From positions 3,112,909-3,176,908 of the forward strand of contig NZ_CP046244.1 in assembly GCF_009735625.1 (NCBI RefSeq): a stretch of DNA of 64,000 nt. Direction: 5' to 3'. Below are positions 5,046-36,590 of this stretch, in pieces (position 1 is the first letter of the stretch; each line of letters begins with the position of its first letter). This DNA comes from Moorella glycerini (GTDB lineage Bacteria > Bacillota > DSM-521 > Neomoorellales > Neomoorellaceae). The notes under the pieces were generated by a model that was given only the letters and a program-made list of their open reading frames with translations, searched no databases and was not told where the DNA came from. A program made the position numbers and the translations under genes.

Positions 5046-5896
5046 CTGGTTTCCCCCCTGTCCTGGGAATAAGATCCCAGGATTTTTAATAAACCCGTCC
5101 TGGATTTCAGGCCTGCCAGCACTTCTTTTAATGGTGGTGCCGTGGCTTTGCCCTCGCAATCAATAAAGAAAAGGTATTCCCCCAGTTCCTTTTTGGTCGG
5201 CCGGGATTCAATACGGGTCAAATTAATGCCGGCTTCAGCGAAATCCTTTAAAATGGCATAAAGACTCCCCGGGCGGTTGGCCAGGGCAGCCACCACCAGG
5301 GAGGTCTTGTAAGGACCGGGGAGGGACGGTGCCTCCCGCCCCAGAACCCAGAAGCGCGTCTTATTTTCCTGGTAATCCTGGATGCTGGTTGCCAGTACCG
5401 GTAGCTGGTAAAGCCTGGCGGCAAAGGCCGAAGCGATGGCTGCCAGTTCCGGCATCCGGCGGGCCTCCCTGGCAGCCTCAGCCGTACTGGTAACCGCCTT
5501 AAGTTTTGCTCCAGGGAGGTTAGTGGCCAGGTAATGGCGGCACTGGGCCAGGGCCTGGGGGTGGGACCAGACTTCCCGGATTGCTTTCATATCCTCTGCC
5601 TGGCCCATAAGGCAGTGGCAGACCGGCAATACTACTTCGCCGATTACCTGCAGCCCTTCTTCCTCGAGGACCAGGTCCAGGGTGAGGTTCACCGCTCCTT
5701 CGATGGAGTTTTCCACCGGTAAAATCCCTGCTCCTGCCTGGTGGTTTTGGACTGCGGTCATGACTTCCGGCAAGTTGGGGCAGGCCAGGAAAGTATCCGC
5801 CCCTGCCTGCCAGTTGCGATCTACCCGCCGTGCCCAGGCAACTGCCGCCTCATGGGAAAAAGTCCCGGGGGGCCCCAGGTAAGCTATTGCCTTCAT
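5036..5896 (-). CDS. pheA: prephenate dehydratase
   Basis: Converts prephenate to phenylpyruvate for phenylalanine synthesis. 286 residues with the periplasmic-binding-like catalytic domain ([12 protein letters not shown] at 6-17, NKTRF at 178-182) and a C-terminal ACT domain with the Phe-binding ESRP motif (230-233), so feedback inhibition by phenylalanine is likely. No fused chorismate mutase; that activity is supplied by the separate aroH upstream. It overlaps aroF by 4 bases and tyrA by 10. Confidence 0.95.
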
Positions 5897-6921
5897 GATA
5901 CCAGATGCCCCAGTTCCCGGCTGCTGGCAGCGATAATGGGCCGGATTTCCTGCACCAGGCGGGCAAATTGCTCCGGTGTCAGGGACTGGGGGCCATCGGA
6001 GAGGGCTTCCTGGGGGTTGGGGTGAACCTCGATCATTAAGCCGTCAGCGCCGGCAGCCAGGGCGGCCCTGGCCATGGGCGCGACCATAAACTTGCGCCCG
6101 GTCCCGTGGCTGGGATCGACAATGACCGGCAAGTGGGATAAATGCTTTACTGCCGGTACGGCGCTCAGGTCCAGGGTATTACGGGTGTACGTCTCAAAGG
6201 TACGGATGCCCCGCTCGCATAAGATAACCTGGCTATTACCCTCAGTGAGGATGTATTCGGCGGCCAGGAGCCATTCCTCAATGGTCGCCGACAGGCCGCG
6301 CTTCAAAAGCACCGGCTTTTGGGTGCGGCCCACGGCCTGGAGCAAGGCAAAGTTTTGCATGTTCCGGGAACCTATTTGCAGTACATCGGCAACCTGCGCG
6401 ACTGCGGTGACCAGGGCCGGGTCCATGATTTCCGTTACCACAGGCAAACCCGTAACTTCCCTGGCTTCGGCCAGGAATTCCAGGCCTTTGGCTGCCAGGC
6501 CCTGGAAGGAGTAAGGTGAGCTGCGGGGTTTATAGGCTCCCCCCCGCAGCATGGTCGCCCCGGCCTCGCGTACGGCCATGGCGGTTTCCAGGAGCTGCTC
6601 CCGGCTCTCCACCGCGCAGGGTCCGGCGATAATGTGAACCTGGTGGCCGCCGATGGTCAATTCCCCTACAGGTACCAAGGTGTCCTCGGGGTGAAAATCC
6701 CGGCCGGCCAGTTTGTAGGGCTGTAAAATGGGCACCACCTTTTCCACCCCGGGCAGGGCGGCCAGGGTCTCAGCCCTTAAACGTGTCTTATCGCCAATGG
6801 CACCAATTATGGTCCGTTCTATTCCCCGGGACAGGTGCACCTTGAAACCCTCCCGTTCCAGGCGCGCTATCACCGCCTGCTGTTCCTCAGAAGTTGCTCC
6901 GGGTTCCATGACAATGATCAT
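5893..6921 (-). CDS. aroF: 3-deoxy-7-phosphoheptulonate synthase (DAHP synthase, AroF/AroA-Ibeta type)
   Basis: First step of the shikimate pathway: PEP plus erythrose-4-phosphate to DAHP. An N-terminal ferredoxin-like regulatory domain (about 1-70) precedes the TIM-barrel catalytic domain, with [25 protein letters not shown] and IEVHPNP motifs. ATG at 6919-6921, five bases after GGGGGG, gives 342 residues; an upstream in-frame ATG at 6984 would translate through the leader hairpin. First gene of the string aroF-pheA-tyrA-aroA-cmk-plsC-ispH. Its leader contains a terminator-like hairpin and a possible short reading frame. Confidence 0.94.
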
Positions 6922-6935
6922 TTGTACCCCCCCTG

Positions 6936-6970
6936 AAAAACAAAACGTCACCCCCGCCAGGAGTGACGTT
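6936..6970 (-). terminator. hairpin with T-run between trpA and aroF
   Basis: Perfect 8-bp stem AACGTCAC/GTGACGTT with an 11-base loop, followed on the minus strand by TTTGTTTTT. It can end trp operon transcripts or act as an attenuator just ahead of the aroF ribosome-binding site. The opposite strand also has a T-run, so it may work in both directions. Confidence 0.7.
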
Positions 6971-6977
6971 TTTTCAA

Positions 6978-7016
6978 GTGCCATCTCTCCTGCCGTACTG
7001 CCATCCTGCCATTTTA
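6978..7016 (-). promoter_or_regulatory. possible leader peptide and repeated CAG motif ahead of aroF
   Basis: The minus strand carries GGCAG three times at exact 8-base spacing (6990-7010), including the 12-base motif GCAGGATGGCAG that recurs near aroH. The same bases contain a 12-codon frame, ATG at 7012-7010 to TGA, reading [12 protein letters not shown], with AAGGG nine bases upstream, and ending shortly before the terminator hairpin. One Trp and one Tyr codon are suggestive for a DAHP synthase leader but few for ribosome-stalling attenuation. The function is inferred. Confidence 0.35.
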
Positions 7017-7101
7017 AGTAACCCTTGAGGGTACCCTACCATACTACAATTTAGACTATAGCACAGTGCCCCCCCTCCTGGCAAGGGGCCTTTTATCATT
7101 T

Positions 7102-7884
7102 TTATATAGCCTGGCGCAGATTTTGAACGAGTTTGACGGCTGCCGGCAGGCCTCCCTCATGGAGGGCCCGCACGACGGCGCTGCCGACGATGATGCCGTC
7201 GCAGAGGGGAGCCAGGAGCCTGGCCTGTGCAGGATTACTGATGCCAAAACCTATTCCCAGGGGGAGGTCCGTCGCACCCCGCACCCTGGCCAGGTAAGCT
7301 GCAATCCCCGGCGGCAGGCCTTCCCTGGCCCCGGTTACCCCGGTCAGGGAAACGCAGTAGATAAAGCCCTGCGCTGCCGCGGCAATTTGCTGCAGGCGTT
7401 CTGCCGGCGTCGTCGGCGCCACCAGGGGAATGGCCGCTAGTTTTACCGCTTCTAATTTTTCCCGCAAAGGGGCGCTTTCTTCCAGGGGCAGGTCGGGAAC
7501 GATCAGGCCGTCTACCCCGGCAGCGGCCAGGTCGGCAGCCAGCGCTGCCAGGCCGTACTGGAGGAGGGGGTTGTAGTAGCTCATGAGGACCAGGGGCAGG
7601 CTCACCCGGGAGCGCAAATCCTTTACCAGGTCCAGGATCTTCCTTAAATTCGTCCCCCTGGCCAGGGCGCGGGTGCTGGCGGCCTGGATGACCGGGCCAT
7701 CGGCCACGGGATCGGAGAAGGGTACCCCCAGCTCAATGATATCAACCCCGGCTGCCGCCAGTTTCTCAATGGCCGCCGCCGTCACCTCCAGGGAAGGATC
7801 CCCGGCACAGAGGTAGACGATTAAGGCCTTGCGTCCTTCCTTTTCCCGGGCGGCAAAGGCAGCGCCGATCCTTTCAACACCCAT
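7102..7884 (-). CDS. trpA: tryptophan synthase alpha subunit
   Basis: Cleaves indole-3-glycerol phosphate to indole and glyceraldehyde-3-phosphate and channels indole to TrpB. 260 residues, TIM barrel with [14 protein letters not shown] holding the catalytic Glu and Asp, and GFGISNPAQ for phosphate binding. It overlaps trpB by 11 bases. Last gene of the trp operon. Confidence 0.96.
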
Positions 7885-9079
7885 GGTTTTTTCCTCCCTC
7901 CTGGAGCACAGCCTCCACTTGCTGGACGTCCTTATCGCCGCGGCCGGAGAGATTAACGACGATAATTTCTTCCTGTGATAACCCGGGGGCCACTTTCATG
8001 GCCAGGGCCACGGCATGGGCGCTTTCCAAGGCCGGGATGATGCCTTCGGTACGGCTCAGCAGTTGAAAGGCCTCCAGGGCTTCGGCGTCAGTAATGGCCA
8101 CATAGGTGGCCCGGCCGCTGTCTTTAAGGTAGCTATGCTCCGGTCCTACGCCGGGATAATCGAGGCCGGCTGATAGCGAGTAGACAGGCTGGATCTGGCC
8201 GTTTTCGTCCTGGACGATATAGCTGTAAGATCCCTGGAAGACGCCGGGCCGGCCGGCAGTTAACGAGGCTGCATGCCGGCCGGTATTTAACCCTCGCCCG
8301 GCCGCCTCAGCGCCCCACAGTTTGACACCGGTGTCCTGGATAAAGGGATAAAAGATGCCCATGGCGTTACTGCCCCCCCCAACACAGGCAATGAGGTGGT
8401 CTGGCAGGCGGCCTGAAGCCTCCAGGACCTGCTGCCGCGTTTCCTCACCGATGACGGCCTGGAAGTCCCGGACCATCATGGGGTAGGGGTGGGGACCAAC
8501 AACTGAACCGATTAGATAATAGGTGGTCCGGACATTGGTAACCCAGTCCCGCAGGGCTTCATTAACGGCATCCTTTAAAGTGGCGCTGCCGGCCGCCACG
8601 GGGATTACCCTGGCCCCCAGGAGTTCCATGCGGAAGACATTCAGGGCCTGGCGGCGGGTATCTTCTTCCCCCATGTAAATTTCGCATTCCATTCCCAGGA
8701 GGGCGGCCACGGTGGCTGTGGCCACCCCGTGCTGGCCGGCACCGGTTTCGGCAATAAGGCGTTTTTTGCCCATGCGCCGGGCGAGCAAAGCCTGGCCCAG
8801 GGCGTTATTCAGCTTGTGGGAACCGGTATGGTTTAGATCCTCGCGCTTCAGGTAGATCCGGGCCCCGCCCAGGTGCCTGGTGAGATTGGCTGCGAAATAT
8901 AGAGGTGTCGGCCGGCCGGCGTACTGCTCAAGGTAATATTTTAATTCCCCTTGAAAGGCGGCATCCTCCCTGGCCTCCTGGTATGCCTTTTCGATTTCCT
9001 TAAGGGCCGGCATGAGGGTTTCGGGTACGAAGCGCCCGCCGTAGGGACCAAAATGCCCCCGGCTGTCTGGTAAGGCCAT
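7874..9079 (-). CDS. trpB: tryptophan synthase beta subunit
   Basis: PLP enzyme that condenses indole and serine to tryptophan. 401 residues. The PLP lysine is K89 in [15 protein letters not shown], and GGGSNAMG binds the cofactor phosphate. It is of the ordinary TrpB1 type that pairs with TrpA, encoded immediately downstream. Confidence 0.97.
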
Positions 9080-9106
9080 ATTGCTTTTACCTCCGTATCA
9101 GTATTT

Positions 9107-9769
9107 TCACCTCTTCGCTAGGGGTGATGCGGTGGCTGGACGGCTGACCTGCTCTTCAGCTTCCCTCACAGCCTGGAGAAATGAAACTATTTTGACCGGA
9201 TCCTTGCGGCCGTCTGTTTCCACGCCGCTGGCGACATCGACGGCATAGGGCCGCACGGTACGGATGGCGGTGCCAACGTTCTCGGGTGTCAGGCCCCCGG
9301 CCAGGATGATAGGCCGGCCCCGGGCCACGGCATCTTTGGCAAGTTCCCAGTTAAAGGTCCGGCCACTGCCGCCGGCAACCCCCGGGACGTAAGCATCCAG
9401 GAGGATGCCCTGTACCTCCGGGTAAGAGTCCATGGCCTGGATAAAGCTTGCATCCCGTACCCGGAAGGCTTTAATAAGCCGCTGGGAAAGCCCGTGGCAG
9501 TATTCCGGCGGCTCATCGCCATGGAGCTGGAGGATATCCAGGCGGCAAAAGGTTGCTATTTCCATGAGGCTGTAGCGGGGCTCATTCACGAAAACGCCTA
9601 CCGTCGTGGTAAAGGGCGGTAGTCTCGTTATTATCTCCCGGGCGGTTTCCGGGTTTATCTGCCGGGGACTCCTGGCAAAGACAAAACCCAGGGTATCAAC
9701 GCCAGCGTCCAGGACCTGCCGGGCTTCTTCATAGCTCCGGATGCCGCAAATTTTTACCCTGACCATCAC
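9107..9769 (-). CDS. trpF: phosphoribosylanthranilate isomerase
   Basis: Third committed step of tryptophan synthesis (Amadori rearrangement of PRA to CdRP). The N-terminal KICGI with catalytic Cys, the QLHGDE segment and the C-terminal DVASGVE are all present. 220 residues, slightly long owing to a C-terminal tail after QAVREAEE. The start is one of two adjacent ATG codons. It lies 27 bases before trpB. Confidence 0.94.
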   Translation of the reverse strand: MMVRVKICGIRSYEEARQVLDAGVDTLGFVFARSPRQINPETAREIITRLPPFTTTVGVFVNEPRYSLMEIATFCRLDILQLHGDEPPEYCHGLSQRLIKAFRVRDASFIQAMDSYPEVQGILLDAYVPGVAGGSGRTFNWELAKDAVARGRPIILAGGLTPENVGTAIRTVRPYAVDVASGVETDGRKDPVKIVSFLQAVREAEEQVSRPATASPLAKR

Positions 9770-9797
9770 GTCACTCCTGCTGTTATTCTACACTAAA

Positions 9798-9859
9798 AAT
9801 AACTTCGCTCCAGGCCGGCATTGTTTTTGCTCGCTCCAAACAAATGCCAGCCCGTTATT
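9798..9859 (-). other. long imperfect hairpin between trpC and trpF
   Basis: Outer AATAAC/GTTATT, then GGC/GCC and GGCATT/AATGCC pairings around an A/G-rich loop; the minus-strand transcript ends it with GTTATTTTT. It starts at the trpC stop codon. It could be an intra-operon attenuator or RNA-processing site; this is structural inference only. Confidence 0.35.
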
Positions 9860-9860
9860 T

Positions 9861-10676
9861 TCATCCTTCTGATGTTACCACGATAGCGGCATAAGGATCT
9901 TGAGATAGACATAGCTCTGCAGCTTTGGCCCTGACATCCCCCGCCGTCATCAGGGCTTCCCCCACCAGGATGGCATCAACGCCAGCCTCAGCTACCAGGG
10001 CCGCATCGGCCCGGCTCTGGATGCCGCTTTCACTGACCACTACGGGCCCCGGGGGGATCAAGGGCCGTAAAGCAAGGGTAGTATGCAGGTCGACTTTAAA
10101 GGTCCGTAAATCCCGGTTATTAATGCCGATAATCCCGGCGCCGGCCTGGAGGGCCACTTCAACTTCTGCCTCCGTATGGACTTCCACCAGGGCCCCCAGC
10201 TTAAGCCCATCCGCCAGGGCCAGGTATTCCTGCAGTTCTGCCGGCTCCAGGGCGGCAACAATTAGCAGTACAGCATCGGCACCTAAAGCCCGGGCTTCAT
10301 AAATCTGGTAGGGGTCAACAATAAAATCCTTGCGGAGTAGAGGCAGGGAGGTTACCTGCCGCACCCGGGACAGGTACTCCGGCTTACCCTTGAAGAAACG
10401 CCAGTCTGTTAATACGGAAATGGCTGCCGCCCCGGTAGCTGTATAAAGCCGGGCCTGCTCCTCCGGGTCAAAGGCGGCCCGGATCAGGCCCCGGGAAGGC
10501 GAAGCCTGCTTTAATTCGGCAATGAGGTTCAGGCCGGCCCCCTGGCGCCGCAGGGCGGCGCTAAAATCCCCGGTCAAGGGTAAATTTTTTACATCCCTTT
10601 CCAGGCGGGCCAGGGGCCTTTGCTCCCTGGCAACCGCCACTTCCCGGCGTTTATGGGCCAAAATCTCCGCCAGCAT
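9861..10676 (-). CDS. trpC: indole-3-glycerol phosphate synthase
   Basis: Closes the indole ring (CdRP to indole-3-glycerol phosphate). 271 residues with ELKQASPSRG near residue 60, LLRKDFI, and the late VVSESGI and AILVGEALM motifs. Single-domain form, not fused to TrpF. It overlaps trpD by one base. Confidence 0.95.
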   Translation of the reverse strand: MLAEILAHKRREVAVAREQRPLARLERDVKNLPLTGDFSAALRRQGAGLNLIAELKQASPSRGLIRAAFDPEEQARLYTATGAAAISVLTDWRFFKGKPEYLSRVRQVTSLPLLRKDFIVDPYQIYEARALGADAVLLIVAALEPAELQEYLALADGLKLGALVEVHTEAEVEVALQAGAGIIGINNRDLRTFKVDLHTTLALRPLIPPGPVVVSESGIQSRADAALVAEAGVDAILVGEALMTAGDVRAKAAELCLSQDPYAAIVVTSEG

Positions 10677-11695
10677 CAGGCAGCCCAGCTTTCTATCCAG
10701 GCCGTCATATCCTGTAGTTTGGCCATGGCGGCGCCGGAATCGATACTCGTTGCAGCTGTAGCCAGGGCTGCCGTGAGGGAATTTTCTACACCCGCGGCCA
10801 GGAGGCCAAAGGCGGCATTGAGGAGAACTACGTCCCGGGCCGGGCCCTTTTCGCCCTTCAGTACGGAGCGGGTAATGGCAGCATTATCGGCTGCCGTCCC
10901 TCCGGCCAGGTTTTCTAAACCGGCCCGGGGCAGGCCGGCATCCTCAGGATAAAAGGTATAAGTGCTGAGGCTGCCGTGATCCAGGCAGGTTATTTTCGTA
11001 GGTCCGGTGGTTGTGACTTCGTCCAGGCCGTCGCTGCCGTGGACCACGTAGGCCCGGCGGCTCCCCAGCCGCCCCAGGACAGCGGCTACTGTTTCCGTTA
11101 AAGAAGGATCATAAACGCCTACCAGCTGGCAGGGGGCACCGGCCGGGTTGGTCAGGGGACCAAGGAGGTTAAAGACGGTGCGGATGCCGATTTCCCGGCG
11201 CGGGCCGGCGGCATACTTCATGGCACCGTGAAATACCGGGGCAAAGAGGAAGGCCATGCCCACCTCATCCAGGCAGCAGGCCACGGCTGCCGGCGGCAGG
11301 TCAACCTTGATACCCAGGGCTTCCAGAACATCGGCGCTGCCGCAATGGCTGGATACGGAACGATTGCCGTGTTTAGCTACGGCCACCCCGGCGCCGGCAA
11401 TAACGAAGGCAGCCGTGGTGGAAATATTAAAAGTATGGCGACCGTCACCGCCGGTACCGCAGGTGTCAATAAAAACCTGGTGGCGGGTGGTCAGGGTGGC
11501 TGCCCGGCGCCGCATGCTCCGGGCAAAGCCGGTGATTTCTTCTACCGTTTCACCCTTCAAGCGCAGGGCGGTAAGGAAGGCAGCTATCTGGGCCGGGGTA
11601 GCCTGGCCCGTCATGATGATATCCATTGCTTGCTCAGCTTCGGTCTCACTTAAATCCTGGCCAGCTACAACCTGGCCAATTAGGGACTTTAACAC
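10676..11695 (-). CDS. trpD: anthranilate phosphoribosyltransferase
   Basis: Transfers phosphoribose from PRPP to anthranilate. The DTCGTGGDG, GNRSVSS and GPLTNPA motifs are intact. GTG at 11693-11695 is preceded by GAGAGGAG and gives 339 residues, better than the ATG seven codons upstream, which lies over that ribosome-binding site. It follows trpG by about 30 bases. Confidence 0.94.
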   Translation of the reverse strand: MLKSLIGQVVAGQDLSETEAEQAMDIIMTGQATPAQIAAFLTALRLKGETVEEITGFARSMRRRAATLTTRHQVFIDTCGTGGDGRHTFNISTTAAFVIAGAGVAVAKHGNRSVSSHCGSADVLEALGIKVDLPPAAVACCLDEVGMAFLFAPVFHGAMKYAAGPRREIGIRTVFNLLGPLTNPAGAPCQLVGVYDPSLTETVAAVLGRLGSRRAYVVHGSDGLDEVTTTGPTKITCLDHGSLSTYTFYPEDAGLPRAGLENLAGGTAADNAAITRSVLKGEKGPARDVVLLNAAFGLLAAGVENSLTAALATAATSIDSGAAMAKLQDMTAWIESWAA

Positions 11696-11724
11696 TCTGC
11701 TCCTCTCCCCTCGCAAAGGATAGT

Positions 11725-12366
11725 TTAGCTGGCTTTATATTCGTTTGTTCCACTTAAGCCTTGAAGCGGAAGGGTGCCAGCCTCCATGAAGGCTTGCTTA
11801 GCATATACTTCTAAAAAATTTTGCAGCAATTCCTTGCCCACCGCCGTCAGGATGGATTCCGGGTGGAACTGGACCCCTTCCACCGCCAGGTGGCGGTGGC
11901 GCAAGCCCATTAATTCACCGGTTTCGCTGCGGGCTGTGACTTCCAGGCAGCCCGGCAGGGTCTCTTCTGCTACTATCAGGGAATGATAACGGGTGGCAGT
12001 GAAGGGATTGGGTAGGTTACGATAAATAGTTTTACCGTCGTGGGTAATAGTTGAGGTCTTGCCGTGCATCAGCCTCGCGGCCCGCACTACCCGGCCGCCA
12101 AAGGCCTGGGCTATACTCTGGTGTCCCAGGCAAACCCCCAGGATGGGGATTTTCCCGGCAAAGGCGGTTATGGCCGCCAGGGAGATACCCGCTTCATTGG
12201 GCGTGCAGGGACCGGGGGAAAGGACCAGGTAATCAGGCTGCAGGGCAGCAATTTCTTCCAGGGTAATGGCGTCATTACGCCGCACCACCACCTCCTGTCC
12301 CAGTTCCAGGAAATACTGGACCAGGTTATAGGTAAAGGAGTCGTAGTTATCGATCATTAGCAGCAT
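11725..12366 (-). CDS. trpG: anthranilate synthase glutamine amidotransferase subunit
   Basis: Supplies ammonia from glutamine to TrpE. Class I amidotransferase with nucleophile C79 in GVCLGHQ and His168/Glu170 in FHPES. 213 residues. It overlaps trpE by 20 bases. A TrpG of this type often also serves p-aminobenzoate synthase; no separate pabA is seen here. It ends in a 20-residue tail beyond the usual domain. Confidence 0.94.
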
Positions 12367-13831
12367 AATTCTCTTCCTCCCTGGTATTCAGCACCTGGAG
12401 CAAAGCCCGGGCTTTATTCAAGGTTTCTTCATATTCACCCGCCGGGTCGGAATCGGCAACTATACCGGCACCGGCCTGGACAAAGGCCTGCCCCCTGGTA
12501 AAAGTAATGGTCCGGATGGCAATGCAGGTATCCAGGTTGCCGTGAAGGCCGAGATACCCCACGGCACCGGCATAAGGTCCCCGCGCCGTTGGCTCCAATT
12601 CGGCAATGATCTCCATGGCCCGCACCTTCGGGGCCCCGGTTACCGTACCCGCCGGGAAACAGGCGAGTAAGGCGTCCAGGGCGTCCTTACCCGGCGCCAG
12701 GCGGGCAGTAATACTGGAAACCAGGTGCATGACGTGGGAATAATATTCAACTACCATTTGCCGGGGTACCTGGAGACTTCCGGGAGCTGCCACCCGGCCG
12801 ATGTCGTTGCGACCCAGGTCCAGGAGCATTAGATGCTCGGCCCGCTCCTTTTCACTGGCCAGGAGTTCCCTGGTTAACTCCTGGTCCTCCCGGGGAGTCC
12901 GGCCCCGGGGCCGGGTACCGGCAATGGGACTGTAGTCAATCTTCCCACCTTCTACCCTAACCAGCATTTCCGGGGAGGCCCCTACCAGTTTTACTTCCGG
13001 TAAGTTCAGGTAAAACATATAGGGGGAAGGATTAAGGGCGCGCAGGCGCCGGTAAACAGCCAGGGTATCGCCGGTAAAGGGCAGGCTCAAGCGCTGGGAG
13101 AGGACGACCTGGAAGATATCCCCGGCAGCGATATATTCTTTGGCTTTTTTTACTCCCTGGATAAATTCCCGCCGGGTTACATTGGCCTGCCAGGGTCCAG
13201 TAGTAAAGGGAAGGTTACTGTCCTGCCGGCACGCTCTTGCAGGCCTATCAAAAGCCTGCAAGAGACGCCGCACTGCGGCTACGGCATCTTCATAACCCGC
13301 TGCCGCCTCTTCACCCCCCCGTCCCAGGTAACCCACCCGTACCGTTCGCAGGACGTGGTCATAGATGAGAAACACCCGGTGGAGGGTTAGATAAGTATCC
13401 GGCAGTTGCAGGTCATCCACGGCGTGGCCTGGTAAGCTCTCTATTTCCCGGGCCAGGTCGTAACCCAGGTAACCAACCAATCCCCCGCAGAAACGAGGCC
13501 CAACAACCGGCGGTAGGGATAATTGCGTCATTAATCGGCGTAAAGCCGCCACCGGTTTTTCGGGGAGGAGCTCAGTTTGTCCCCGGGTAGTTAAATAAGC
13601 TTTCCCGGCCCGGATTTTAAAAGTCAGCAAGGGATCAAAGCCGATCAGGGAGTAGCGGCCCAGCCTCTCCCCGCCCTCAACACTTTCCAGCAAAAAGCTG
13701 TCAGGTTTATTCGCAAATCTTAAGTACAGGGAAATGGGAGTTTCGGTATCGGCCAGGACCTCGGCCCAGACGGGAACATAAGGGGCCTTTTGGGCCAGCT
13801 CCAGGTAGGTTTGCCGGTCAGGCTGGATCAC
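12347..13831 (-). CDS. trpE: anthranilate synthase component I
   Basis: Converts chorismate and ammonia to anthranilate. 494 residues; the N-terminal LLES...S element that binds feedback tryptophan is present ([16 protein letters not shown]), as are the [15 protein letters not shown] and GAPKVRAME catalytic motifs. GTG at 13829-13831 with GGAGGAGA five bases upstream is chosen. The in-frame ATG at 13894 would translate through the leader terminator, so it is rejected. First gene of the trp operon, behind a triplet-repeat attenuator. Confidence 0.94.
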
Positions 13832-13852
13832 CAGTCTCTCCTCCCCTTTTAG

Positions 13853-13886
13853 ACAAAATAAAAACCAGCGCTCAAGTGAGCCCTGG
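13853..13886 (-). terminator. trp leader terminator
   Basis: Minus-strand stem CCAG-CTCA/TGAG-CTGG (13865-13886) with one internal mismatch pair, followed by TTTTTATTTT. It lies in the trpE leader, so it would stop transcription before trpE. Its 5' half contains GGGCTC, which can pair instead with GAGCCC at 13915-13920 inside the triplet repeats, giving an antiterminator that excludes this hairpin. Confidence 0.75.
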
Positions 13887-13895
13887 TCCGGCATA

Positions 13896-13951
13896 CTCTC
13901 CCATGCTCTACTCCGGGCTCCTCTCTAACTCCACTCAGCTCAACTCAGCTA
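13896..13951 (-). promoter_or_regulatory. (G/U)AG triplet array in the trp leader (TRAP-type binding site)
   Basis: Read on the minus strand, about ten UAG/GAG triplets follow one another with spacers of 2,2,2,2,3,2,4,2 and 5 bases. That is the signature of the site bound by the 11-subunit TRAP (MtrB) ring, which favours triplets 2-3 bases apart. The array overlaps one arm of the antiterminator, so protein binding would release the terminator when tryptophan is plentiful. No mtrB lies in the window. The neighbouring HutP-like protein belongs to another family that reads NAG triplets. Confidence 0.75.
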
Positions 13952-13970: not shown

Positions 13971-14000
13971 AGCATACCACGGATAGTAAATAGCTGTCAA
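13971..14000 (-). promoter_or_regulatory. trp operon promoter
   Basis: Minus-strand TTGACA (14000-13995), 18-base spacer, TATGCT (13976-13971), right after the aroH stop. Predicted start near 13964, about a dozen bases before the first AG triplet, leaving a leader of about 130 bases before trpE. Confidence 0.75.
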
Positions 14001-14014
14001 TAGTTTTGTTTTCG

Positions 14015-14422
14015 CTAACGTAAATCCGGGCGTAATTGTGCTGCCCGGCCCAGATAAACGTGGACCGGTTCCCGGTCGCTATAAGCATGGATTAAAACGC
14101 GGACAATCCCCGCCAGGCTCCCCGGTACCGGTATTTCGGTAGCACATAACAAGGCTGCTTCCTGCCAGCCCAGGCGCCGTGCCGCCTCGGCCGGGAAGGC
14201 CGCGTTGAGATCCGGCGTCACCGTAAAAATGGCGCTGATAATATCTTCTACTGCCAGCCTGTTCCGGACCATTATTTCGCGGAGCAAACCTTCCGTTGCC
14301 GTGAGAATGGCGGAGGCCGTATTCTCCGGCACTTCCACGGCCCCGCGCAGCCCCCGTACTTTTGTCCCCCCGGATTCCTGTTTGCCTCCGGCTGCGGGTA
14401 AACCCTGAATTTTTTCTTCCAT
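14015..14422 (-). CDS. aroH: chorismate mutase, AroH type
   Basis: Rearranges chorismate to prephenate, the branch point to Phe and Tyr. Resembles the Bacillus AroH trimer: VRGLRGAVEV with the substrate-binding Arg, SAIFTVTPDLNAAFPAEAAR in the middle, and HVYLGRAAQLRPDL at the end with the active-site Tyr and Arg. 135 residues including about 20 extra at the N-terminus. ATG at 14422 follows AGGGGAGA. It supplies the mutase missing from pheA and tyrA downstream. Confidence 0.92.
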   Translation of the reverse strand: MEEKIQGLPAAGGKQESGGTKVRGLRGAVEVPENTASAILTATEGLLREIMVRNRLAVEDIISAIFTVTPDLNAAFPAEAARRLGWQEAALLCATEIPVPGSLAGIVRVLIHAYSDREPVHVYLGRAAQLRPDLR

Positions 14423-14425
14423 AGT

Positions 14426-14475
14426 TCTCCCCTACCATCCTGCGATTTTTTTAACAGGCTGCCTGCCATCCTGCC
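14426..14475 (-). promoter_or_regulatory. paired 12-base motif between the HutP-like gene and aroH
   Basis: The minus strand holds GCAGGATGGCAG and, about 20 bases further on, GCAGGATGGTAG, the second running into the aroH ribosome-binding site. The same motif is in the aroF leader (about 7000). The NAG triplets separated by five bases are what an NAG-reading protein such as a HutP homologue could recognise. Confidence 0.4.
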
Positions 14476-14477
14476 CC

Positions 14478-14888
14478 TCAGACGGCCCGGTGACCCAGGC
14501 CAACACCTACTTCATCCAGGTGCAACAGGCCGATGCCAAAGAAAATGGCCACACTCAAGTGATCATGCCAGCGGGCAATGCCAATTTTACCGCCTACATT
14601 TAAACCCAGGGCCTTGGGCATGATCTGGGAGAGGGCTTCCCGGGTTGCCCCGGCAACGGCCCCTTCCTCGGGGTGGGTTTCTTTTATGACCCCTTCCCTT
14701 TTGGCGGCCACTACGGCCCGTTCCACGATTTTTTGCATGGAATTGATAAATTCGCCGCCGTAATCAACGGCTGCAGTGTAAATGCCAGCGGCGGCATACT
14801 CCTTCTTTAAGCGCGCCTCTTCTTCCCGGCTTTCCGACAGGGCCATCTTAATAGCTACCGCCGCCACTTTTTTGCTCCCGTATTCCAT
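14478..14888 (-). CDS. HutP-like RNA-binding antiterminator homologue
   Basis: 136 residues resembling HutP, the histidine- and metal-dependent antiterminator of the Bacillus hut operon. The C-terminal part (LSVAIFFGIGLLHLDEVGVGLGH) aligns with the HutP core including one His (H123). The ESHALYHAT region that supplies two metal-binding histidines in B. subtilis HutP (from memory) reads EEGAVAGAT here, with Gly at both positions. No hut genes are nearby; aroH and the trp operon follow on the same strand. ATG at 14886-14888 with GGTGAG in front is preferred to the ATG at 14930. A role in controlling aromatic genes is inference. Confidence 0.75.
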   Translation of the reverse strand: MEYGSKKVAAVAIKMALSESREEEARLKKEYAAAGIYTAAVDYGGEFINSMQKIVERAVVAAKREGVIKETHPEEGAVAGATREALSQIMPKALGLNVGGKIGIARWHDHLSVAIFFGIGLLHLDEVGVGLGHRAV

Positions 14889-15092: not shown

Positions 15093-15317
15093 ATGCAAAT
15101 AAATTGCCTAATCCCGTAAATACTAGGGAACGGGGGAACCACCAGAAGGGGTGAATCCCCGCACCCAGTAACATCATTGCCTTTTTGCGAAACTCCTTTT
15201 TGAGGAGTTTAAGTAATTAAGGTAGCAGGGGGAGGAAAACTGGGTGCGGGATAGGGCTTTTCTCCGGCCCGAACCCGGCAGCTAACCTCGTCGGCAGGAA
15301 GGGAGATGAACCTGCAT
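15093..15317 (+). ncRNA. ydaO-yuaA (cyclic-di-AMP) riboswitch
   Basis: Contains the diagnostic stretches of this class: CGGGGGAACC near 15132, GGGGTGAATCCC near 15150, ATAGGGC...GCCCGAACCCG near 15252-15285, and CAGCTAACCTCGTCGGCAGG near 15280-15300. ATGC at 15093-15096 can close with GCAT at 15314-15317. A central variable arm of about 80 bases is present. Such riboswitches normally turn genes off when c-di-AMP is high; they control K+ uptake and osmolyte genes. It precedes the permease operon. Confidence 0.92.
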
Positions 15318-15451: not shown

Positions 15452-17017
15452 TTGGCTGCGGCTGCAGAAAAGCTGGAACTCCGCCGGGATGTTACCGTCT
15501 GGGGCTCCTATATGTGGGGCTACGCCGATGTCGGCGCCGACATCTACGCCGCCCTGGGACTGGTCATGCTGTGGGCCAAGGGCGCTACTCCCCTGGCCTT
15601 CGCTCTGGCGGGTCTTGTTTACATTATGATTGGCCTGGCTTATACCGAGCTGGCGGCCACCTATCCCGTAGCCGGCGGCGGCCAGTATTTTACCCTGCGC
15701 GGCCTGGGCGACTTCTGGGGTTTTGTCGCCGGGTCCGCCTTGCTGCTGGATTATACCATCGACATTGCCCTCTTTGCCACGGCTTCTGCCGGTTATATCA
15801 ACTTTTTCCTGCCCTTTATCTTCGGTATTGATATTAACTCCCTGGCCATTAGCATCGGGCCCCTGCACCATGTTAACCTGGTGTGGATGGCCGAAGCCTT
15901 GCTCCTGGTGATTTTCCTTATCGCCCTCAATATTCGCGGGATGCGGGAGTCCTCCCTGCTGAACGAGGTACTGGGGGTTATCGACATCCTTACGGAATCA
16001 AGTATCATCATCTTCGGTTTTCTCTTTGCCTGGCGGCCGGAAATGCTGGCCCACCAGTGGCTCACCCAGTTCCCCACCCTGAAAGAATTCGCCTACGGTT
16101 CCTCCCTGGCCATTATTTCCTTTGTCGGCCTGGAATCTATCTCCCAGGCGGCCCAGGAAACCAAACGGCCGGCAACCATCGTCCCCCGGACATCAGTGAG
16201 CCTGATCTTTACCGTTTTTATCTTTGCCACTGCCTTTTCCACCATGAGCCTGGGTGTCCTGCCCTGGCAGGAAATTGCCGAGTCCGTAGGTGACCCCATA
16301 GCCACCCTGGCCCACGCCATTCCCTTTATTGGTTTTATTGCCGGTCCCTTTGCCGCCGTGCTGGGAGCGACGATCCTCTTGATTTCGGCCAATTCGGGGG
16401 TTATGAGCGCCTCAAGGCTGACCTTTGCCATGAGCCAGTTTCACTTTATCAGCGAGTGGTTTAACGCCGTCCACCCACGTTTCCGGACTCCTTATCGTAC
16501 CATCATCATTTTCTCCGGTATTGGTATACTCCAGATCATCCTTTCGTTCCTGACACCCAATGCTATGGATACCCTGGGTAACATGTATGCCTTCGGCGCC
16601 ACCACGGGATACATCCTGGTCTTTATCGCTTTGATCAAACTGCGCTTTACCGATCCCTATTCGCCCCGGCCCTATAAAGTACCTTTGAACATCAAAATCA
16701 ATTACCGCGGACGACAGGTTGATTTTCCCGGCCTGGCCGTTCTCGGCACCCTGGGGATCAGCACCATTCTTTTTGAGGTTATCCTTACCCATGCTATTGG
16801 CCGGATTGCCGGCCCGGCCTGGGTACTCCTCTGCTTCCTCTATTACGCCTATTACCGCCGGAGCAAGGGATACCCCGTTCTGGGCAGCATCCCCCGCAAC
16901 TGGGAAGAAGAGCAACTAAAAGTCCTGGAAGCGGCGGAAGAATATGACCTGCTGGAACAATACAAGCTGGCCCTGGCCGAGCGCGACCGCAAGGAGGCTG
17001 TTTCTCATGCCCAGTGA
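15452..17017 (+). CDS. APC-superfamily permease, probable K+ or amino acid transporter
   Basis: 521 residues with about 12 hydrophobic segments of the amino acid/polyamine/organocation fold, then a soluble tail of about 45 residues (GYPVLGSIPRNWEEEQ onward). TTG at 15452 follows AGAGGAGGG. Placement directly behind a c-di-AMP riboswitch and ahead of Usp and TrkA-type genes recalls KimA (YdaO), an APC-type K+ importer under the same riboswitch class in B. subtilis. KimA carries its cytosolic domain fused, whereas here it would be separate proteins. Substrate not established; amino acid transport remains possible. Confidence 0.8.
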   Translation: MAAAAEKLELRRDVTVWGSYMWGYADVGADIYAALGLVMLWAKGATPLAFALAGLVYIMIGLAYTELAATYPVAGGGQYFTLRGLGDFWGFVAGSALLLDYTIDIALFATASAGYINFFLPFIFGIDINSLAISIGPLHHVNLVWMAEALLLVIFLIALNIRGMRESSLLNEVLGVIDILTESSIIIFGFLFAWRPEMLAHQWLTQFPTLKEFAYGSSLAIISFVGLESISQAAQETKRPATIVPRTSVSLIFTVFIFATAFSTMSLGVLPWQEIAESVGDPIATLAHAIPFIGFIAGPFAAVLGATILLISANSGVMSASRLTFAMSQFHFISEWFNAVHPRFRTPYRTIIIFSGIGILQIILSFLTPNAMDTLGNMYAFGATTGYILVFIALIKLRFTDPYSPRPYKVPLNIKINYRGRQVDFPGLAVLGTLGISTILFEVILTHAIGRIAGPAWVLLCFLYYAYYRRSKGYPVLGSIPRNWEEEQLKVLEAAEEYDLLEQYKLALAERDRKEAVSHAQ

Positions 17018-36420: not shown

Positions 36421-36431
36421 AATTTTGTATA

Positions 36432-36590
36432 ACCTGGAACGCTGAATTGCGGTGCGCAGCCGTAAGCGGGGGACCCACTTTTGCCGGGGTGAATCTCGCC
36501 GGTTAATTCCGGCGAGTAGGGCTAACCTTCAGCCCGAATCCGTCAGCTAACTTCGTAAGCGTGGAAGGGGATATGTGACGGTACTTTCAT
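36432..36590 (+). ncRNA. ydaO-yuaA (cyclic-di-AMP) riboswitch upstream of otsA
   Basis: Matches the class consensus more closely than the first copy: GTAAGCGGGGGACCC near 36462, GCCGGGGTGAATC near 36485, GAGTAGGGC...GCCCGAATCCGTCAGCTAAC near 36512-36550, then TTCGTAAGCGTGG. It is followed directly by a terminator. This places trehalose synthesis under c-di-AMP control, in line with the osmolyte role of the signal. Confidence 0.94.

Follow-up and report, generated by a model that had tools for sequence, protein, structure and literature searches.

A predicted TRAP-read attenuator before the trp operon of Moorella glycerini and a possible HutP-linked attenuator before aroF

The window analysed here, a stretch of 64,000 nucleotides from Moorella glycerini, carries on its minus strand an aromatic cluster in which genes for a HutP-like protein and a chorismate mutase lie upstream of trpEGDCFBA, and aroF lies downstream of it. 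The features concerned, in window positions, are the following:

14478-14885, minus strand: HutP-like RNA-binding protein; PF09021 over the whole protein, 174.9 bits against a cut-off of 25
14427-14473, minus strand: NAG repeats in the hutP-aroH gap, forming two clusters with about 20 nt between them
14015-14422, minus strand: aroH, chorismate mutase (PF07736)
13971-14000, minus strand: trp promoter, from the sequence; -35 TTGACA at 14000-13995, 18-bp spacer, -10 TATGCT at 13976-13971
13898-13951, minus strand: predicted TRAP-binding array of one UAG and nine GAG triplets
13913-13920, minus strand: antiterminator 5' arm GAGCCCGG, built partly from triplet 7
13878-13886, minus strand: antiterminator 3' arm CCAGGGCUC, doubling as the terminator 5' arm
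13855-13888, minus strand: intrinsic terminator (attenuator), a hairpin of about -13.5 to -16.6 kcal/mol plus UUUUUAUUUU; conserved
13838-13846, minus strand: trpE ribosome-binding site GGGGAGGAG
12347-13831, minus strand: trpE, first gene of trpEGDCFBA; GTG start, relatives 97-63% identical and in the same place
7102-12366, minus strand: remaining trp operon, assigned from translations without a family scan; trpG 11725-12366, trpD 10676-11716, trpC 9861-10676, trpF 9107-9769, trpB 7874-9079, trpA 7102-7884
6936-7046, minus strand: aroF leader with period-8 NAG repeats, TAG at 7046 and 7038, CAG at 7008, 7000 and 6992
6969-6936, minus strand: aroF leader terminator ACGTCACTCCTGGCGGGGGTGACGT followed by TTTTGTTTTT, from the sequence
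5893-6921, minus strand: aroF, DAHP synthase, first gene of the aromatic pathway; assigned from its translation

The likely start of trpE is the GTG at 13831, preceded by its ribosome-binding site at 13846-13838, while the ATG at 13894 given by the ORF finder falls within the leader. This leader, about 135 nt long, carries between 13951 and 13898 the triplets TAG ct GAG tt GAG ct GAG tg GAG tta GAG ag GAG cccg GAG ta GAG catgg GAG, with spacers of 2, 2, 2, 2, 3, 2, 4, 2 and 5 nt; because the 4- and 5-nt spacers fall among the last triplets, possibly not all ten are bound. A terminator hairpin, CCAGGGCTCACTTGAGCGCTGG, follows and is succeeded by TTTTTATTTT, and GAGCCC in the array (13920-13915) is complementary to GGGCTC in the terminator (13883-13878). 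The first-pass annotation had described a promoter, some ten (G/U)AG triplets mostly 2 nt apart and a terminator before trpE; all three are found on the minus strand, the promoter at 13971-14000, and the count of triplets is indeed ten, far beyond chance. The longest chain with spacers of 2-3 nt comprises seven triplets, against a mean of 2.2 when the same 106 nt are shuffled with dinucleotides preserved; none of the shuffles (0/1000) matched it. The exact pattern (KAG NN)x5, formed by the first five triplets, occurs once in the 3.56-Mb genome, and its backward control occurs nowhere in it.

Comparison of leaders among relatives shows array, antiterminator arm and terminator to be conserved in the family. 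Of the 14 trpE leaders that could be read, 13 have chains of at least five triplets. The spacer series 2,2,2,2,3,2,4 recurs, the promoter hexamers are kept, most members of the genus have the arm GAGCC(C/U)GG, and the terminator CCAGGGCTCNCTTGAGCGCTGG is retained with small changes; the gene order around trpB is likewise kept. In one leader (L029), AAG triplets stand among the GAG and UAG ones. Beyond the family, counting chains of at least five KAG triplets with 2-3 nt spacers in one orientation, arrays precede trpE in 17/30 TRAP-positive loci, with a terminator after most, and in none of six TRAP-negative loci, a small sample (Fisher p of about 0.014 by our own calculation); on the opposite strand chains reach two triplets at most. 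Some of the 13 TRAP-positive loci of other families that have no such array may lie inside operons or represent pabB.

Equally important is the protein expected to read such an array. The first-pass annotation had seen no mtrB in the window; a search of the genome locates it outside, at G000:C1:284588-284788 (134.8 bits for PF02081, cut-off 21.3), between coaD and a DUF2007-like gene. Its product is 69% identical over 67 residues to Bacillus subtilis TRAP, the reference sequence having been verified at every residue against PDB 1wap. Residues K37, K56 and R58, the RNA contacts of TRAP (PMC7430163), are invariant in all 47 mtrB loci compared across the phylum, and position 60 is Arg, Lys or Gln in these loci, never Glu, and Arg in the genome studied. 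Of 18 family genomes, 17 carry the gene, the remaining one being 58% complete; in a sample of 398 genomes from the whole phylum, 199 have it. In two genomes, G189 and G055, it stands directly before trpE. An anti-TRAP search gave no match above the cut-off, the sub-threshold matches all lying inside frames of 380-388 aa, which we take to be DnaJ zinc fingers.

In silico, the nascent RNA up to the 5' arm of the terminator folds into an antiterminator, GAGCCCGG pairing with CCAGGGCUC, which bears out the GAGCCC/GGGCTC pairing proposed at first pass; the leader folds at about -24 to -27 kcal/mol and the antiterminator element at -17.5 kcal/mol. Holding the triplets unpaired abolishes the antiterminator and leaves the terminator, in agreement with the earlier expectation that a protein sitting on the triplets would switch one to the other. 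Against shuffled arrays, the array pairs with the terminator arm weakly but consistently better than chance: across 29 leaders z averages -0.75, and most leaders fall short of significance by themselves. Given this weak z, the antiterminator rests more on a geometry that recurs across families, the last GAGs and a CUGG-like sequence lying opposite CCAG..CUC, than on statistics. Another pairing of the free fold, between 5' CAAAAUGAAUA and UAUUUUG, was dropped, being absent in relatives such as L026.

Taken together, the presence of mtrB, the retention of its contact residues, and the conservation of the leader in mtrB-bearing relatives and its absence from the TRAP-negative loci examined support the first-pass reading of the trpE leader as an attenuator through which TRAP (MtrB) controls trp operon transcription, an already known type of switch, to which we assign a probability of about 0.94. 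By analogy with B. subtilis, TRAP would bind this leader in dependence on tryptophan and cause termination there (PMC3913778, PMC7430163). Transcription would start at about 13965, and RNA polymerase would then make the triplet array. When tryptophan is scarce, TRAP would be inactive, GAGCCCGG of the array could pair with CCAGGGCUC, consuming the 5' arm of the terminator, and polymerase would read through into trpEGDCFBA. When tryptophan is plentiful, the TRAP ring loaded with it would wrap the triplets and block the antiterminator, the hairpin at 13888-13863 would form instead, and transcription would end before trpE.

Among the alternatives, the one that fares best retains TRAP as the ligand of the leader and moves its main effect to trpE translation, or places it at both levels. 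On readthrough RNA, TRAP of B. subtilis also masks the ribosome-binding site of trpE (PMC11255114), and one constrained fold of the present leader has this site partly paired; however, a strong, conserved terminator stands between array and ribosome-binding site, and the pairing of the predicted masked site is weak, so that we consider this account unlikely. Much less probable still is reading of the triplets by the HutP-like protein, encoded two genes upstream and about 0.6-1 kb from trpE in most of the family, which the first-pass annotation had entertained as a possible reader. Although B. subtilis HutP binds NAG repeats (PMC7430163), the mtrB of this genome is canonical and the array has the TRAP period of 2-3 nt spacers, without HutP-type NAG spacing. 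A different, period-8 repeat, NAGNAYGG, accompanies the HutP-like gene, which makes this protein an unlikely reader of the trp array: the repeat precedes hutP, aroH and aroF and is present in 24/29 aroF leaders vs 2/41 trpE leaders. Moreover, hutP occurs without an adjoining trpE, yet almost always with aroH, and a TRAP-positive, HutP-negative genome (G293) has a seven-triplet trpE array if AAG is also counted. The HutP-linked repeat suggests that the trp array has a separate reader, TRAP. A T-box, leader peptide or riboswitch, frequent as such devices are before trp operons, is hardly credible here, since Rfam yields no match in the trp leader even at an E of 1, the leader of some 135 nt is packed with KAG triplets and by eye has no short ORF with Trp codons, and mtrB with a conserved array speaks against all three.

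The TRAP-read attenuator resembles that of B. subtilis trpEDCFBA in an array of similar size with core spacers of 2-3 nt, in an antiterminator that overlaps the array, in a terminator before trpE, and in an mtrB with K37, K56 and R58. It differs in its shorter leader (about 135 vs 203 nt), in having ten triplets, some separated by 4-5 nt, rather than eleven, in an antiterminator arm formed by triplet 7 of 10, and in a strong intrinsic terminator with a good U-run. Further differences are the Arg in place of Glu at TRAP position 60, the location of mtrB beside coaD, trpG inside the operon, and the lack of a match for anti-TRAP, an accessory and non-defining component. In B. subtilis, the region around Glu60 is required for TRAP-driven forward translocation of polymerase (PMC7430163). 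Efficient termination there needs Glu60. The strong terminator with its U-run, combined with Arg at the Glu60 position, indicates that termination at trpE probably depends to a lesser degree than in B. subtilis on TRAP actively pushing polymerase.

Another candidate target lies elsewhere in the genome. A search by pattern only, allowing two mismatches in six triplets and liable to miss mixed-spacer arrays, found, apart from the trpE leader, a triplet cluster at position 687466 and a single weak match (1520767); its backward control gave four chance matches. The 687466 site precedes a gene for a trpP-type Trp transporter of 184 aa (PF17099), the sole cluster of adjacent triplets besides the trpE leader that this search placed before a sensible gene. 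There the array is followed by the terminator AACAGCCTGGCGGTTTTCGTCAGGCTGTTTTTTAT (L201 1480-1590, genome C1:687460-687570), and array and terminator together precede trpP in 11 of 12 returned loci, the twelfth (L259) being an incomplete locus. A TRAP array before a trpP-type transporter gene is shared with B. subtilis trpP (yhaG), in which TRAP blocks ribosome binding (PMC11255114); here, unlike there, a strong terminator follows the array and precedes the ribosome-binding site by about 60 nt, and for this reason control of trpP by TRAP attenuation rather than by translational block appears likely.

TRAP is taught as a Bacillus mechanism. The first-pass remark that it is seldom described in acetogenic or thermophilic clostridia holds as wording on the literature: a search covering few subscription journals found no mention of TRAP with Moorella or Carboxydothermus, and an earlier description elsewhere is possible. 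It does not hold as a statement of rarity, since mtrB, and with it TRAP, belongs to the standard outfit of about half of the sampled phylum genomes. In addition, the lack of Glu60, the absence of a detected anti-TRAP and the apparently attenuated trpP provide natural variants for asking how far TRAP must push RNA polymerase.

The other end of the cluster offers a second attenuator candidate. Among the fetched hutP loci, which comprise the 30 best-scoring loci and the family rather than a random sample, the HutP-like gene adjoins aroH in nearly all, across the phylum and with or without a neighbouring trpE; period-8 NAG pairs between hutP and aroH recur among family members, and the second cluster overlaps the aroH ribosome-binding site. 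The motif GGNAGNAYGG has 43 occurrences in hutP loci, all of them on the gene strand, and in those searches its tandem form was restricted to hutP loci and to the same regions fetched through trpE. The window has it in the hutP-aroH gap and, as a tandem, ahead of aroF. Of 29 aroF leaders drawn from many families, 24 have NAGNAYGGNAG, against none in antisense and 0.2 expected from shuffles, and most of the repeat-bearing leaders then carry a terminator; five control aroF leaders, one of them from a TRAP genome without HutP, have no NAGNAYGGNAG. The last repeat of the window's aroF leader, GGCAGGAG, can pair with CUCCUGGC in the loop and 5' side of the terminator, giving a predicted antiterminator of the nascent RNA. 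No Rfam family matched the aroF leader at E up to 1, and a scan of the whole window with ten related loci gave no match for either the trpE or the aroF leader.

Location, strand, conservation and the family's known preference for NAG point to the HutP-like protein as the reader of these NAGNAYGG repeats. Its likeness to the HutP antiterminator of B. subtilis hut consists in a PF09021 protein and NAG clusters about 20-30 nt apart beside a terminator; the differences are a period of 8 in the frame NAGNAYGG, aromatic rather than histidine genes, and Gly at the positions of His73 and His77. In a weak hhalign alignment, both histidines are replaced by Gly, as they are in 15/15 aligned relatives, and, in our reading, His138 is replaced by Leu; the B. 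subtilis sequence used was checked against PDB 1vea. We take His73, His77 and His138 to be the Mg2+/histidine site of B. subtilis HutP. Given the two Gly substitutions, the ligand of the HutP-like protein is probably other than Mg2+-bound histidine. A Foldseek search with a poor AlphaFold model (pLDDT 62) returned nothing usable. A second HutP family protein, encoded away from aroH in L223 (G000:C1:1010875-1011264, minus strand) and 30% identical, retains an HxxxH motif (HGLVH) resembling His73/His77 of B. subtilis HutP.

On balance we lean slightly towards two protein-read attenuators in this one aromatic cluster, the second involving a HutP-like protein that would have lost its histidine site, would read NAGNAYGG before aroF, before aroH and in other families before its own gene, would shift the leader from antiterminator to terminator, and would control entry into the aromatic pathway in response to a ligand, perhaps an aromatic amino acid. 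This attenuator looks newer than the trp switch and is the most novel-looking element of the window. A literature search covering few subscription journals found no HutP together with chorismate mutase and no described role of HutP outside histidine use, though here too an earlier account may exist elsewhere. If the proposal is correct, the repeats would constitute a novel RNA element and HutP proteins would gain a new role, both in many families of the phylum. Such a second switch for aromatic biosynthesis, reading triplets but unrelated to the first, would matter more than the trp attenuator.

Several other RNA elements accompany these loci. In L227, L228, L231, L234 and L243, the repeat lies upstream of hutP itself (about 1340-1410 in the HutP orientation) with a terminator after most, and autoregulation of hutP through this repeat is possible in other families. 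One genome from another family has a c-di-GMP-I riboswitch close to hutP (L231 2137-2221). On the plus strand of the window, c-di-AMP riboswitches occur at 36430-36576 (93.1 bits) and at 15095-15310 (84.6 bits), the latter preceding an amino-acid permease-like gene at 15452.
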